Shown here: positions 21,212 to 51,540 of the stretch, piece after piece | How the letters are laid out: each line of letters opens with the position of its first letter | Position numbering within the stretch: position 1 is the stretch's first letter | NCBI RefSeq assembly: GCF_002554705.1 | Contig: NZ_PDEP01000001.1 | Coordinates: 434,001-498,000, forward strand | From: Longimonas halophila | GTDB lineage: Bacteria > Bacteroidota > Rhodothermia > Rhodothermales > Salinibacteraceae | DNA: 64,000 nt | Direction: 5' to 3' | Position numbers and translations under genes: made by a program | The notes under the pieces: model-generated | What the model was told of the DNA's origin: nothing | What the model saw: the letters and a program-made list of their open reading frames with translations, nothing else | The model's database searches: none

Positions 21212-22504
21212 CTACCACCCAATACGCCCCGAGCGCGACCGGGTAGAAGCCGATGAAGCGGGGGGCGGCTCTTCAGGATCCGTCTCGTCAAGCGCAAGCT
21301 GGGCGGGGGGCTGCTCGGCGTTGTCGAGCTGAGTGAGCGTGGCGCCCTGGTAGTAGAACGCCAAGATGTCGCGATAGGAGCGCCCGGCCTGCGCCATGCC
21401 ATGAGCGCCCCACTGGCTCATGCCCACCCCGTGCCCGTAGCCGCGTCCGTCGAACACGTAGCGGCTGCCCTGGCGCCGAGCCTCGAACCACGTGCTACGC
21501 AGCACCTCGCGACCCGCGGCCCGGTTTACGGCCCGGCGGAACGCACCCGCCTCAACCGACTCCCGATCTCCGCTGGGACGAAGCAGCTCCAGCGTCAGCA
21601 ACCGCCCGCTGGGCGATGCATCGCCCAGATAAAACCCGCGTACCGACCCGCCAAACTGCCGCTCCAGCCCACGAAGTACAGCCGCCCGGCTGACGGAGGT
21701 CTGCCACGTATGATGCGGGGCCACCGAGTCGTACGGATCCTGGCGTCCACGCAGATACGGGAGCTCTTCGCTGGCATCCCACACGTTTTCGTTGTTGGCG
21801 GTGTGGCCGCCGCTGCTCGAAAAGTACACCGCCTCAATAAGGTGCGAGTTGTATGTAAGCACTTCTCCCTCTGTGGCCTGCGCTGCCGCTCGCGAGGCGT
21901 CGGTGATGGCCGACAGGCCGCGATAGACCTGCGAGATAGTGTGGTCAACATGCGTGTACGCGCCGTCGAACTTGTCGCTGCCCCGCACGGCATAGGTACG
22001 CGCCACCACGGCCATGGCTTTGGCCCCTTCTACGTCGTCAAGGCCATACTCGCTGGCCACCACGCTGGCCACATACTGCTCCAGCGGCACCGCATTCACA
22101 ACCTCCAGCGTCTCGCCGTCGGGGCGAACCTCGAACGCACCGGTGTATGACCGCTGTGCGCCTGCCGTACGCATGGTCGTTGCTGCGCGCGAGGGGGCGT
22201 TCAGGTACAGTGTCGATGCAGCTATGCGATGCGACCCATGCTCAATGCGCACATCGCCTCGGTACAGGCTTAGCTGTGCAATCGACCCGGGTTCGATGTG
22301 AAAGAGCGGCGCACGTTCGGGACTCGTGTGCACCGGGATGCGGCGGGAGCTGACCAGCTCCACCTGACGCGGCGAAAGCCGGTCGAAGATGCGCACGCGT
22401 ACGTCTTGCGCCTGGGCCACCGGAGCACTGCCAACGAGCAGAAGCCCCACAGCGCCCACTGCTATCGCACTGCATCCCAGCCAGCGTGCAGGAGTGCGCA
22501 GCAT
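21212..22504 (-). CDS. SpoIID/LytB-domain exported protein
   Basis: 430 residues from the ATG at 22504, which gives a good signal peptide ('AIAVGAVGLLLVGSAPVAQAQ'). The mature protein has an N-terminal beta region and then the SpoIID/LytB (Amidase II-like) domain from about residue 125: 'VPLEQYVASVVASEY', 'EGAKAMAVVARTYA', 'SSSGGHTANNENVW', 'LPYLRG', and the signature near residue 370 'RGYGHGVGMSQWGAHGMA'. SpoIID proteins are lytic transglycosylases acting on denuded peptidoglycan in spore formers; non-sporulating bacteria carry such versions for cell-wall remodelling. The longer frame to 22582 is not preferred. It is divergent from tatD. Confidence 0.88.
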   Translation of the reverse strand: MLRTPARWLGCSAIAVGAVGLLLVGSAPVAQAQDVRVRIFDRLSPRQVELVSSRRIPVHTSPERAPLFHIEPGSIAQLSLYRGDVRIEHGSHRIAASTLYLNAPSRAATTMRTAGAQRSYTGAFEVRPDGETLEVVNAVPLEQYVASVVASEYGLDDVEGAKAMAVVARTYAVRGSDKFDGAYTHVDHTISQVYRGLSAITDASRAAAQATEGEVLTYNSHLIEAVYFSSSGGHTANNENVWDASEELPYLRGRQDPYDSVAPHHTWQTSVSRAAVLRGLERQFGGSVRGFYLGDASPSGRLLTLELLRPSGDRESVEAGAFRRAVNRAAGREVLRSTWFEARRQGSRYVFDGRGYGHGVGMSQWGAHGMAQAGRSYRDILAFYYQGATLTQLDNAEQPPAQLALDETDPEEPPPASSASTRSRSGRIGW

Positions 22505-39717: not shown

Positions 39718-39762
39718 AAAAAAACGCCCTGCTTCTCGTCATGAGAGGCGGGGCGCTTTTTT
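39718..39762 (+). terminator. Intrinsic terminator after acnA
   Basis: An inverted repeat (AACGCCCTGCTTCTC / GAGAGGCGGGGCGCTT) with loop GTCAT is followed by TTTTTTG on the + strand and preceded by a run of A. One bulged position interrupts the stem. It starts about 38 bases after the acnA stop. Confidence 0.85.
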
Positions 39763-39861
39763 GTTGGGGTGCTTCAATGTTTTCGTTGGAGGCGGCTGAA
39801 CGATGCATTCAGATTAGGAACAAGCTCGTTCTCATCTATTCTAATTGCATCGAGCAACTAT

Positions 39862-39877
39862 TCAATTGATCAATTGA
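39862..39877. promoter_or_regulatory. Perfect 16-base palindrome before arsR-like gene (likely operator)
   Basis: TCAATTGATCAATTGA is a perfect palindrome ending three bases before the ATG at 39881. ArsR/SmtB repressors bind AT-rich 12-2-12-type inverted repeats close to the start of their own gene, so autoregulation is the simple reading. No other copy is seen in this window. Confidence 0.6.
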
Positions 39878-39880
39878 CAA

Positions 39881-40558
39881 ATGAAAATTGAAGCTAAGCG
39901 CGCCTTCAAAGACGAGATCTATGAGCAGTTTGCGCGTATCGGTAAGGCGTTTTCGAGCGCCTCGCGGCTGGAGCTGATCGACCTGCTGGCGCAGCGCGAA
40001 CGCCGCGTGGACGATCTGGCTGAGGAGACGGGCATGTCGGTTGCAAATACCTCGCGTCACCTGCAAGTGCTGCGCCGTGAGCGCCTCGTGCAGCGTCGTA
40101 AGGACGGCACGCGTGCGTTCTACACCCTGGCTGATCCGTCAGTCTACCGGGCGTGGCGGGCGCTGCGCGCGCTGGCAGAGACGCGGCTGGCCGAGGTGGA
40201 GACCACGGTGCAGCACTACCTGACGGACCGTGCGTCTATGACGGCGCTCTCGGCAGAGGAGCTTAAGACGCGGCTGGAGCGCGACGATGTGATTCTGCTC
40301 GACGTGCGTCCGGAGCCTGAGTACGACGCCGGGCACATTCCCGGAGCCCGCTCTCTACCCATTGACGAACTCGCCGCGCACATCGAGGCGCTACCCGGGG
40401 GGCACGAGGTGGTGGCGTACTGCCGTGGACCGTACTGTGTCTACTCGGATGAGGCCGTGCGTCGTCTGCGTGATCGCGGATATGAGGCGCACCGTCTGGC
40501 CGGAGGACTCCCCGACTGGGCGGCGGCGGGCCATCCGGTTGAGCGCACCGCGGCATAG
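39881..40558 (+). CDS. ArsR-family regulator fused to a rhodanese domain
   Basis: 225 residues. Residues about 14-88 are a winged helix of the ArsR/SmtB type, with the recognition helix in 'MSVANTSRHLQVLRRERLV' and the wing 'RRKDGTRAFYTLAD'. Residues about 120-222 form a rhodanese domain with 'LLDVRPEPEYDAGHIPGARSLP' and the active loop 'YCRGPYCVYSD' (Cys181, Cys186). These are the only two Cys in the protein: the DNA-binding part has none, so the metal or persulfide Cys pairs of ArsR, CadC or SqrR are missing. Sensing of sulfane sulfur through the rhodanese loop is a plausible inference. The MFS gene follows 55 bases downstream. Confidence 0.88.
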   Translation: MKIEAKRAFKDEIYEQFARIGKAFSSASRLELIDLLAQRERRVDDLAEETGMSVANTSRHLQVLRRERLVQRRKDGTRAFYTLADPSVYRAWRALRALAETRLAEVETTVQHYLTDRASMTALSAEELKTRLERDDVILLDVRPEPEYDAGHIPGARSLPIDELAAHIEALPGGHEVVAYCRGPYCVYSDEAVRRLRDRGYEAHRLAGGLPDWAAAGHPVERTAA

Positions 40559-40613
40559 GGCCCTGCCCTAACGAATCCACCATCGCTGCACTCCCACTAT
40601 CACGCCACGTCCT

Positions 40614-41885
40614 GTGGATACTGTAAAACAAGGCATTCGTACAAACTGGAAGCAATTTGCGCTTCAGATCGTCACTGTGTTCGCGGTTGGACTCACCATG
40701 GGTGCAGAGCGCAACGTGGTGCCCATTATGGGCGAGGAGCTCTTTGGCGTCACTTCGTTCCTGGTAATCGGCTCTTTTGTGGTGAGCTTCGGCATCGTGA
40801 AAGCCGTTCTCAACCTCTACTCGGGCAAGTGGGCCGATGTCTACGGGCGCAAGCCGGTGCTCATTGCCGGGTGGCTGTCGGCGCTCCCCATTCCGTTCCT
40901 GCTGATCTATGCGCCCAGCTGGTGGTGGGTGGCCGCCGGTAATGTGCTGCTTGGGGTGAACCAGGGCGTAGCCTGGAGCATGAGCATGACCTCGAAGATC
41001 GAACTGGCCACTCCTGAGGAGCGGGGCCTGGCAGCGGGTATCGACGAAGCGTTTGGATACACCGGCGTAGCCATTGGCGCATGGCTCACCGGCGTCATTG
41101 CCACGCACTACACCCTGCGTCCAGAGCCGTTTTACTTTCTGGCTGGCGTTATTGTGGTAGCCCTGCTCATCGCGCTCTTCCTGATCCAGGAAACCCTTCC
41201 GTACGCTCAGCCCGAAGCCGCCCGCGAGGCCGAGCGTGACGACGCCCGCACCGACGCCGACCTTCCGTTCTGGGAGATCGTGAAGCGCGCCACGTACAAA
41301 GATCTCACGCTGTTTGCAGCAGCGCAGGCCGGACACGTCGAAAACTTTGTCGATACGCTGGTGTGGATTGCCTTTCCGCTGTTTCTTATCGGACAAGGGC
41401 TTGATCCGGCACAAGTTGGTGTTGTTGTGGGGATACACAGCGGCGCCTATTTCCTGCAAGTGTATACCGGACGCCTGGGCGATCAGATCGGGCGGAAGCC
41501 GCCCATTGTGGCGGGGTTCTTCCTGGCCGGCGCCGGTATCGCGGGCATGATGTGGGTCGACAGCTACGCCGGCTGGATGCTCTTCTCGGGCCTATCGGGC
41601 ATTGGTATGGCACTGCACTACCCGAACCTGATTTCGGTGGCGAGCGATGCCGCCCACCCGCTGTGGCGGTCGACCGGACTCGGGGTCTATCGCATGTGGC
41701 GTGATCTCGGATACGCGGTGGGGGCGGTTCTCATCGGGATTACGGTGGATGTGTTCTCGATCGAAGCGGCGTTCTATGGCACCGCTGCTGCCATGTTTAT
41801 CTCGGGGGCGTATGTGGTCTGGCGCATGGAAGAGACCCATCCGGTGTTCGGGACGCATGCGTCGTCGGAGCGGTTGAGCGCCTGA
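40614..41885 (+). CDS. MFS transporter
   Basis: 423 residues with 12 predicted membrane segments and a hydrophilic central loop (about 200-220). The MFS motif A-like loop 'GKWADVYGRKPVL' after helix 2 and its second-half partner 'GRLGDQIGRKPPIV' are clear. The start is GTG at 40614; the next in-frame ATG would remove part of helix 1. It is most likely co-transcribed with and controlled by the ArsR-rhodanese gene 55 bases upstream. The substrate is unknown: drug, sulfur compound or oxyanion export all fit the context. Confidence 0.87.
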   Translation: MDTVKQGIRTNWKQFALQIVTVFAVGLTMGAERNVVPIMGEELFGVTSFLVIGSFVVSFGIVKAVLNLYSGKWADVYGRKPVLIAGWLSALPIPFLLIYAPSWWWVAAGNVLLGVNQGVAWSMSMTSKIELATPEERGLAAGIDEAFGYTGVAIGAWLTGVIATHYTLRPEPFYFLAGVIVVALLIALFLIQETLPYAQPEAAREAERDDARTDADLPFWEIVKRATYKDLTLFAAAQAGHVENFVDTLVWIAFPLFLIGQGLDPAQVGVVVGIHSGAYFLQVYTGRLGDQIGRKPPIVAGFFLAGAGIAGMMWVDSYAGWMLFSGLSGIGMALHYPNLISVASDAAHPLWRSTGLGVYRMWRDLGYAVGAVLIGITVDVFSIEAAFYGTAAAMFISGAYVVWRMEETHPVFGTHASSERLSA

Positions 41886-48924: not shown

Positions 48925-48952
48925 GTAGGGACACGGCGCGCCGTGTCCCTAC
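48925..48952. repeat. Perfect 28-base palindrome (GTAGGGACACGG family)
   Basis: A perfect palindrome whose half is GTAGGGACACGGCG, lying between nadB and proB. The outer GTAGGG...CCCTAC also frames the hairpin at 62404-62435, so both belong to one repeat family with variable middle sequence. It has no T-run, so it is not an ordinary terminator. Confidence 0.8.
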
Positions 48953-50247: not shown

Positions 50248-51540
50248 ATGGCAGAGGCATCCCCCACAACCCATCGTTCCATCGAATCGCTCGCAGCGGA
50301 ATGCAGTCAGGCCGCACGGCAGGTGGCAAACCTCTCCACCGCCCGCAAAAACCGCGTGCTGCAGCACATGGCCGATGCGCTGCTCGACCACCAGGCGTCC
50401 ATCTTAGACGCCAACAACACCGACGTCTCCGGCGCCCGTGATGACGGACTCCCCGAGGCCATGATCGACCGGCTCGTGCTCAACGAGAAGCGCCTCCAGA
50501 AGATGGCCGCCGCCCTCCGCGAAGTCGCCAGCTTCTCGGATCCCGTCGGACAGATGTCGGCCACCACCACGCGTCCCAGCGGCATCGAAGTGGGGCGCAT
50601 GCGCATCCCACTGGGGGTCATCGGCATGATCTACGAAGCACGCCCCAACGTTACCTCCGACGCCGCCGGGCTCTGCTTCAAAGCCGGAAACGCCGTGTTC
50701 TTGCGGGGCGGCTCCGAAGCCTTCCACGCCAACCACGCCATCGCCGATGCGCTGCACGAAGCGCTCGAAGCCGAAGACGTAGACCCCGCGGCCATTACGC
50801 TGGTGCCCACCACCGACCGCGCCGCTGTGCAAGAGATGCTCACATTGAACCAGCACATCGACCTCGTCATCCCACGCGGCGGCGAAGGGCTCATCCGTTT
50901 CGTCGACGAAACCAGCCGCATCCCCGTCATCAAGCACTACAAAGGCGTCTGCCATCTCTATGTGGATGCGCAGGCCGACCTTGACATTGCCGACGACCTG
51001 CTCATCGACGGCAAGACCTCGCGTCCGAGCGTGTGCAATGCACTGGAGACGCTGCTCGTGCACGAAGACGTTGCCGACACGTACGTGCCCCGGGCCTGCG
51101 CGCTACTCCGCGAGGCGGGCGTAACCGTGCGCGGCGATGAACAGGTGCAGGCTCGCGTACCCGATGTAGAACCGGCCACCGAAGACGACTACGCGGCCGA
51201 GTACCTCGACCTTACCATCGCGATGCGCGTGGTGGATAGCGCCGACACTGCCCAAGACCACATCGCCACCTACGGATCCAACCACACCGAGGTGATCGTG
51301 ACCGACGATCTGCCTACGGCCCGCCACTTTGCACGTACTGTTGACGCCTCGGTCGTGCTCGTCAACGCGTCATCGCGCTTCTCAGATGGAGGCGAACTCG
51401 GGCTGGGCGCCGAGATTGGCATCTCAACCACCAAGCTGCACGCGTACGGTCCGATGGGCCTGCAGGCGCTGACCACGCAGAAGTTTGTGGTGTACGGAGC
51501 CGGAGAAACGCGCCACCCGGTGCCTGAGCGCACAGCATAG
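50248..51540 (+). CDS. proA: Glutamate-5-semialdehyde dehydrogenase (gamma-glutamyl phosphate reductase)
   Basis: 430 residues. It reduces glutamyl phosphate with NADPH to glutamate-5-semialdehyde, the second step of proline synthesis. Landmarks: 'PLGVIGMIYEARPNVTSDAAGLC', 'GNAVFLRGGSEAFHAN', the catalytic Cys263 in 'RPSVCNALETLLV', 'NASSRFSDGGELGLGAEIGIST' and 'HAYGPMGLQALTT'. Just downstream of proB in the same direction. The start ATG at 50248 is chosen from the family N-terminus. Confidence 0.95.
   Translation: MAEASPTTHRSIESLAAECSQAARQVANLSTARKNRVLQHMADALLDHQASILDANNTDVSGARDDGLPEAMIDRLVLNEKRLQKMAAALREVASFSDPVGQMSATTTRPSGIEVGRMRIPLGVIGMIYEARPNVTSDAAGLCFKAGNAVFLRGGSEAFHANHAIADALHEALEAEDVDPAAITLVPTTDRAAVQEMLTLNQHIDLVIPRGGEGLIRFVDETSRIPVIKHYKGVCHLYVDAQADLDIADDLLIDGKTSRPSVCNALETLLVHEDVADTYVPRACALLREAGVTVRGDEQVQARVPDVEPATEDDYAAEYLDLTIAMRVVDSADTAQDHIATYGSNHTEVIVTDDLPTARHFARTVDASVVLVNASSRFSDGGELGLGAEIGISTTKLHAYGPMGLQALTTQKFVVYGAGETRHPVPERTA

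Follow-up and report, generated by a model that had tools for sequence, protein, structure and literature searches.

Within the window, as we call the whole 64-kb stretch of Longimonas halophila DNA analyzed here, the locus consists of a regulator gene preceded by a palindrome and followed, after a gap of 55 bases, by the gene of an MFS transporter (Table 1). Every coordinate given in the first-pass annotation, an earlier reading of this DNA, was confirmed when the window sequence was read again, including the distance at which the MFS gene starts 3' of the regulator. A strong terminator-like stem-loop, predicted to end the upstream aconitase-like gene, sets the unit apart from that neighbor. 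The MFS gene appears to be the sole other gene that belongs to the regulator's unit.

Table 1. Features of the regulator and transporter locus, in window coordinates.
Feature	Position	Strand	Remarks
Terminator-like stem-loop with T tail, CTTTTTTGTT	39725..39755	+	14 pairs, 9 of them G-C; pattern match only
Predicted operator core	39860..39879		Encloses the perfect 16-bp palindrome at 39862-39877
ArsR-rhodanese regulator, putative repressor	39881..40558	+	225 aa; ATG at 39881
Codons of the rhodanese loop CRGPYC, proposed sensor	40421..40438	+	Residues 181-186
MFS transporter gene, proposed target of the repressor	40614..41885	+	423 aa; GTG start

The regulator had been described as an ArsR winged helix fused to a rhodanese domain, and both domains indeed score well above their Pfam cut-offs (HTH_5 (ArsR), 45.5 bits against 22; Rhodanese, 66.3 bits against 22.2). 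The winged helix covers residues ~3-102, a linker helix residues 104-113 and the rhodanese domain residues 122-222. AlphaFold models the monomer as two confident domains (pLDDT 94.8, pTM 0.88), the winged helix resembling PDB entry 3gw2 and the rhodanese domain 3gk5 (TMt 0.89 in each case). As originally reported, the protein contains only two cysteines, Cys181 and Cys186, both within CRGPYC. Cys181 lies at the head of the rhodanese loop, at the end of strand 176-181. No cysteine precedes it, and the metal- and sulfur-sensing cysteines of known ArsR sensors are thus absent, which also agrees with the earlier description.

Sixty-four ArsR-rhodanese loci were recovered from at least eight phyla (Rhodothermota/Bacteroidota, Acidobacteriota, Actinomycetota, Chloroflexota, Desulfobacterota, Gemmatimonadota, Pseudomonadota and Deinococcota). 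The window protein has the features of this family, namely ArsR and rhodanese domains in one chain of about 220 residues, a CRGxxC loop and a predicted operator of the type ATTCAA-N8-TTGAAT. At the E-value limits used, relatives are unevenly spread, turning up in 4 of the 27 same-family genomes and in 23 of the 396 genomes of the phylum sample. ArsR-rhodanese proteins are also found in 111 plasmid records, and among the plasmid matches listed they are mostly labeled ‘metalloregulator ArsR/SmtB family transcription factor’. The first-pass annotation had singled out the DNA-binding domain as free of cysteine. This is true of the window protein but is no peculiarity of it, as 35 of the 64 relatives likewise have no cysteine in residues 1-120; a single cysteine occurs there in 19 and two occur in 10, and their positions vary. 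CRGxxC, by comparison, is present in all 64, in 33 of them as CRGPYC, and the invariant columns in an alignment of 25 include D141, V142, R143, P144, E147, H152, Y180, C181, R182, G183 and C186. The second loop cysteine is missing from the other rhodanese domains inspected, those of the MBL-rhodanese of the same genome (HCGSGARA) and of a haloarchaeal one (VCAAGVVS). Its invariance thus speaks most clearly for an adapted loop, with the caveat that the relatives were gathered by similarity to the window protein. With the other cysteines not conserved, this pattern makes the rhodanese loop the best candidate for the sensor, in support of the earlier proposal.

The best sequence match in the PDB, and a top structural match as well, is Mb0332 of Mycobacterium bovis (2kko, 3gw2; E 3.9e-17). 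The solved fragment is the winged helix alone, without a rhodanese domain, but actinobacterial relatives with 57-76% identity to that winged helix join it to a rhodanese domain containing CRGxYC. We take Mb0332 to be the protein known as Rv0324 in M. tuberculosis. Published accounts of Rv0324 place it in modules linked to tolerance of bedaquiline, to nutrient limitation and to hypoxia (PMC9480834, PMC4916473), and we found no effector for it in the open literature examined.

Two better-known groups share the winged helix of the window regulator. The ArsR/SmtB metalloregulators (SmtB, CzrA, ArsR) resemble it in fold and in operator style, and the NCBIfam model HTH_metalloreg, named for this function, matches it with a score of 74.8 against a cut-off of 55. 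Their sites, however, are missing from residues 1-113: there is no alpha-3 cysteine motif, and a D-x-H motif, sought in the alpha-5 segment 86-102, is absent. The second group comprises SqrR, BigR, SoxR, sHdrR and HlyU. In known sulfane-sulfur repressors of the ArsR type, two cysteines of the ArsR domain become bridged by sulfur and the protein comes off the DNA (PMC12423496, PMC10509353); the neighbors of these repressors include sqr, pdo, rhodanese and TauE genes and efflux pumps (PMC12423496). In these sensors the cysteine pair lies within the ArsR domain (41/107 in SqrR, 50/116 in sHdrR), whereas the pair of the window protein lies in the fused rhodanese domain. In line with this, it scores 34 bits with the BigR model, for which the cut-off is 155. 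Because it lacks the cysteines of both groups, we file the regulator under neither. It is an ArsR/SmtB protein by fold and an ArsR-rhodanese protein of the Mb0332/Rv0324 type by architecture, and since ArsR sulfur sensors are already known, its rhodanese-borne cysteine pair is a variant feature. The CstR/CsoR-type persulfide regulators have similar target genes (cst-like operons), but their DNA-binding fold is unrelated. The SUL module carried by an Arthrobacter plasmid is comparable in gene content: besides its CsoR regulator it has genes for a sulfur dioxygenase, for rhodaneses, for TauE and for an MFS protein (PMC6305408).

The palindrome in front of the regulator, TCAATTGATCAATTGA, is a perfect, self-complementary 16-mer that ends three bases before the ATG, as first noted. 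Palindromy alone is weak and not significant, because perfect palindromes of at least 16 bases occur four times in the window (the other three, each of 16 bp, are at 21611-21626, 48931-48946 and 50897-50912). One might therefore dismiss the site as AT-rich DNA that is palindromic by chance, and the MFS gene as an incidental neighbor. This is contradicted by the recurrence of the site in the same position across phyla and by the conserved linkage to the MFS gene, and we give the idea almost no credence. The longer site reads ATTCAA-N8-TTGACA and matches 9 of the 10 core positions of TTCAA-N8-TTGAA. Among the 64 loci, which are not all independent, a core of TTCAA-N7..9-TTGAA with at least 9 of 10 positions occurs within 100 bp upstream in 41, compared with 4.3% of dinucleotide shuffles, and a perfect 10/10 core in 25, compared with 0.2%. 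The remaining 23 fall below 9/10, some apparently with other half-sites, and we count them against our main reading. It is position and conservation that make the predicted site significant.

A near-identical site, TTCAATTGA-N2-AATTGA, is found at four same-family loci (L001, L048, L049 and L050, the first and last of which appear to come from one organism or from two that are almost alike), where it stands 2 bp ahead of genes for regulators that are 71-73% identical to the window protein. Three named plasmids, examined after the motif had been defined and not used in defining it, agree. The site of Methylocystis rosea, ATTCAAGTGAATAATTGAAT, is flanked by the regulator gene on one side and by divergent MBL-MFS genes on the other. 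That of Deinococcus peraridilitoris, ATTCAAATAGTTTATTGAAT, lies upstream of the first gene of an operon MBL-MFS-regulator-SQR-like, and that of Thiothrix, ATTCAAGCAATTCATTGAAT, lies upstream of the regulator gene. We judge that the window's regulator very probably binds the predicted operator. In its own genome the strict site pattern is found once, at this locus, with one further match at three mismatches, the level of the reversed-pattern control; because of this single occurrence, the circuit looks strictly local. Together with the operator core conserved across phyla and the conserved MFS linkage, this bears out the earlier view of a self-contained unit of regulator, operator and transporter. 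The loose pattern, TTCAA-N8-TTGAA with one mismatch, gave 89 sites in the same genome and was discarded as useless for predicting a regulon.

The genes surrounding the relatives bear on the signal. In raw counts made without a random-gene control, over 64 loci of unequal length that include some near-duplicates, the same MFS stands near 25 regulators (window included; 38-83% identity in the others), an SQR-like flavoprotein near 19, an MBL-rhodanese near 17, DsrE near 10, TolC near 8, an ArsM-like methyltransferase near 7, SelD and a class-V aminotransferase of the desulfurase type near 3 each, and TauE near 1. At least one of SQR-like, MBL-rhodanese, DsrE, SelD, TauE and desulfurase-like genes is present at 42 of the 64 loci, and a frequent order is regulator, MBL-rhodanese, MFS. 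A Pfam tally of 107 neighboring ORFs returned MFS, methyltransferase, rhodanese, MBL and pyridine nucleotide-disulfide oxidoreductase families, and also DsrE, class-V aminotransferase, Cys/Met PLP enzyme and TauE. In a group of relatives from the same phylum (L067, L068, L072, L073, L074, L076 and L077), the regulator is followed by a TolC-type outer-membrane efflux protein, whose gene stands where other relatives have MFS or SQR. In some Bacteroidota (L060, L061 and L065), the ArsR-rhodanese and SQR-like genes are separated by a small ORF of ~98-109 aa that resembles a second winged helix.

ArsM-like methyltransferases (near L006, L007, L009, L011, L012, L022 and L029) and SelD genes, like the regulator's membership of the ArsR family and the name of its NCBIfam model, would suit a protein that uses its loop cysteines as ligands for a thiophilic metalloid or metal (arsenite, selenite-derived selenide, Hg or Cd), with the MFS as its efflux pump. 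We consider such a metalloid sensor unlikely. No metal efflux family is among the 25 commonest Pfam families of the 107 neighboring ORFs, ArsB/Acr3, ArsC and cation efflux all falling outside them, whereas MBL, rhodanese, SQR-like, DsrE and cysteine-metabolism families are included. Moreover, the one ArsM-like protein tested scored 215 bits, below the curated ArsM cut-off of 263, and the cysteine pair is placed at a rhodanese active site. These methyltransferases might act on a compound of sulfur or selenium. The first-pass annotation had left the effector open among polysulfide, thiosulfate, arsenite and cyanide; the neighborhoods favor sulfane sulfur as the candidate, and we hold a signal of the sulfur type to be quite likely. 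Against this reading, the only neighbor in the window regulator's own unit is the MFS gene. The MBL-rhodanese of the same genome, which is persulfide dioxygenase-like, is encoded elsewhere (L045 409-1866, contig C4); no operator was found at its gene, and it is therefore probably outside the regulator's control.

The transporter belongs to the MFS by a wide margin (Pfam MFS_1, 158 bits against a cut-off of 33.4). No curated NCBIfam model matched it above cut-off, so that by curated score it falls outside the TetA, MdtG and NorA drug exporters, and its similarity to NorA reaches only E 3.6e-5. Its role as an exporter is putative, and sulfite, thiosulfate or polysulfide as cargo are guesses drawn from the neighboring genes. 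Relatives on haloarchaeal plasmids (L085, L086, L087 and L088) are mostly 61-78% identical to it, and most bacterial ones are far below them at 38-45%. In three of the four haloarchaeal regions the MFS gene directly follows a rhodanese-like gene, itself divergent from a helix-turn-helix regulator. In the one region scanned, that of Halobacterium salinarum, the rhodanese-like gene encodes an MBL-rhodanese and the regulator is of the HTH_10 type; the MFS gene there also stands beside TauE, YeeE/YedE and thioredoxin genes. DsrE is likewise among the genes near the haloarchaeal MFS. In the fourth region, from Natrononativus, the gene before it encodes an FAD-dependent oxidoreductase, and genes for TauE and thioredoxin are close by. 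The MFS therefore keeps company with sulfur metabolism under an unrelated regulator as well. Such high identity across domains suggests horizontal transfer among halophiles, here between Salinibacteraceae and haloarchaea.

In the model that we prefer and consider probable, the protein is an autoregulated repressor responsive to sulfane sulfur, with Cys181 and Cys186 as its sensor, that controls only itself and the sulfur-linked MFS. An ArsR-rhodanese dimer would sit on the palindrome of the ATTCAA-N8-TTGAAT type abutting its own start codon and repress its own gene and the co-transcribed MFS gene; given the location of the operator, binding would block transcription or its start. When sulfane sulfur rises, as persulfide, polysulfide or a thiosulfate-derived species, Cys181 of the rhodanese domain would accept sulfur and Cys186 would then close a di- or polysulfide bridge with it. 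This change would be relayed through the linker helix, loosening the winged helix from the DNA, and the derepressed MFS would be made and would move a sulfur compound across the membrane. The conservation of the loop and of the operator core, the domain assignments and the linkage to the MFS and to sulfide and persulfide genes are computational observations, whereas we infer that the protein represses rather than activates, what it responds to, how its cysteines are bridged, how the signal reaches the winged helix, and what the MFS moves and in which direction. The regulator probably works like SqrR, and we lean slightly towards the specific bridge between Cys181 and Cys186.

Two vicinal cysteines that are invariant in 64 of 64 relatives might also form a general thiol-redox switch for peroxide, disulfide stress or electrophiles, the rhodanese fold being a mere scaffold, and ArsR peroxide sensors that use proximal cysteines do exist (PMC10509353). 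However, the first cysteine stands where a rhodanese accepts its sulfur, and the neighborhoods are those of sulfide and persulfide oxidation rather than peroxide defense, which makes such a switch improbable in our estimation. Rhodanese domains commonly pass persulfide between proteins. The domain might accordingly serve as an enzyme or docking domain that takes sulfur from a partner protein or hands it on to one, so that the partner and not a small molecule controls DNA binding, and DsrE, MBL-rhodanese and desulfurase-like genes near the relatives would fit this. As the unit has no gene for such a partner next to it in its own genome, we rate partner control as more doubtful still, and a small-molecule sulfane-sulfur signal remains our preferred reading.

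A study of 2025 pointed out that many ArsR regulators beside sulfur-oxidation genes lack the two known sensing cysteines and may act in other ways (PMC12423496). If our model is true, the ArsR-rhodanese family supplies one such mode. Regulators filed as metalloregulators in many phyla, including the Mb0332/Rv0324 group, would then respond to sulfane sulfur through a sensing site of a new kind, and an MFS family that has no substrate class would gain one. In the open literature, to which our search extended, we found no paper that names the ArsR-rhodanese fusion or treats it as a sensor. A broader proposal, on which we are evenly divided, is that these proteins are one-component sensors of sulfane sulfur that make up a separate and widespread class, their rhodanese active site, remodeled by the invariant second cysteine of CRGxxC, acting as an allosteric sensor and not as an enzyme, and that their target is an unrecognized MFS family of sulfur-compound transporters common to bacteria and haloarchaea.

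Inspection by eye also revealed apparent dialects of the operator. Relatives of the Mycobacteriales type (L036, L053, L055, L056 and L057) appear to use TTCCA-N8-TGGAA, and some of the Chloroflexota type (L013, L014, L018 and L021) appear to use TTGC-N8-GCAA. These dialects offer a possible handle on which residues of the recognition helix read the half-site.
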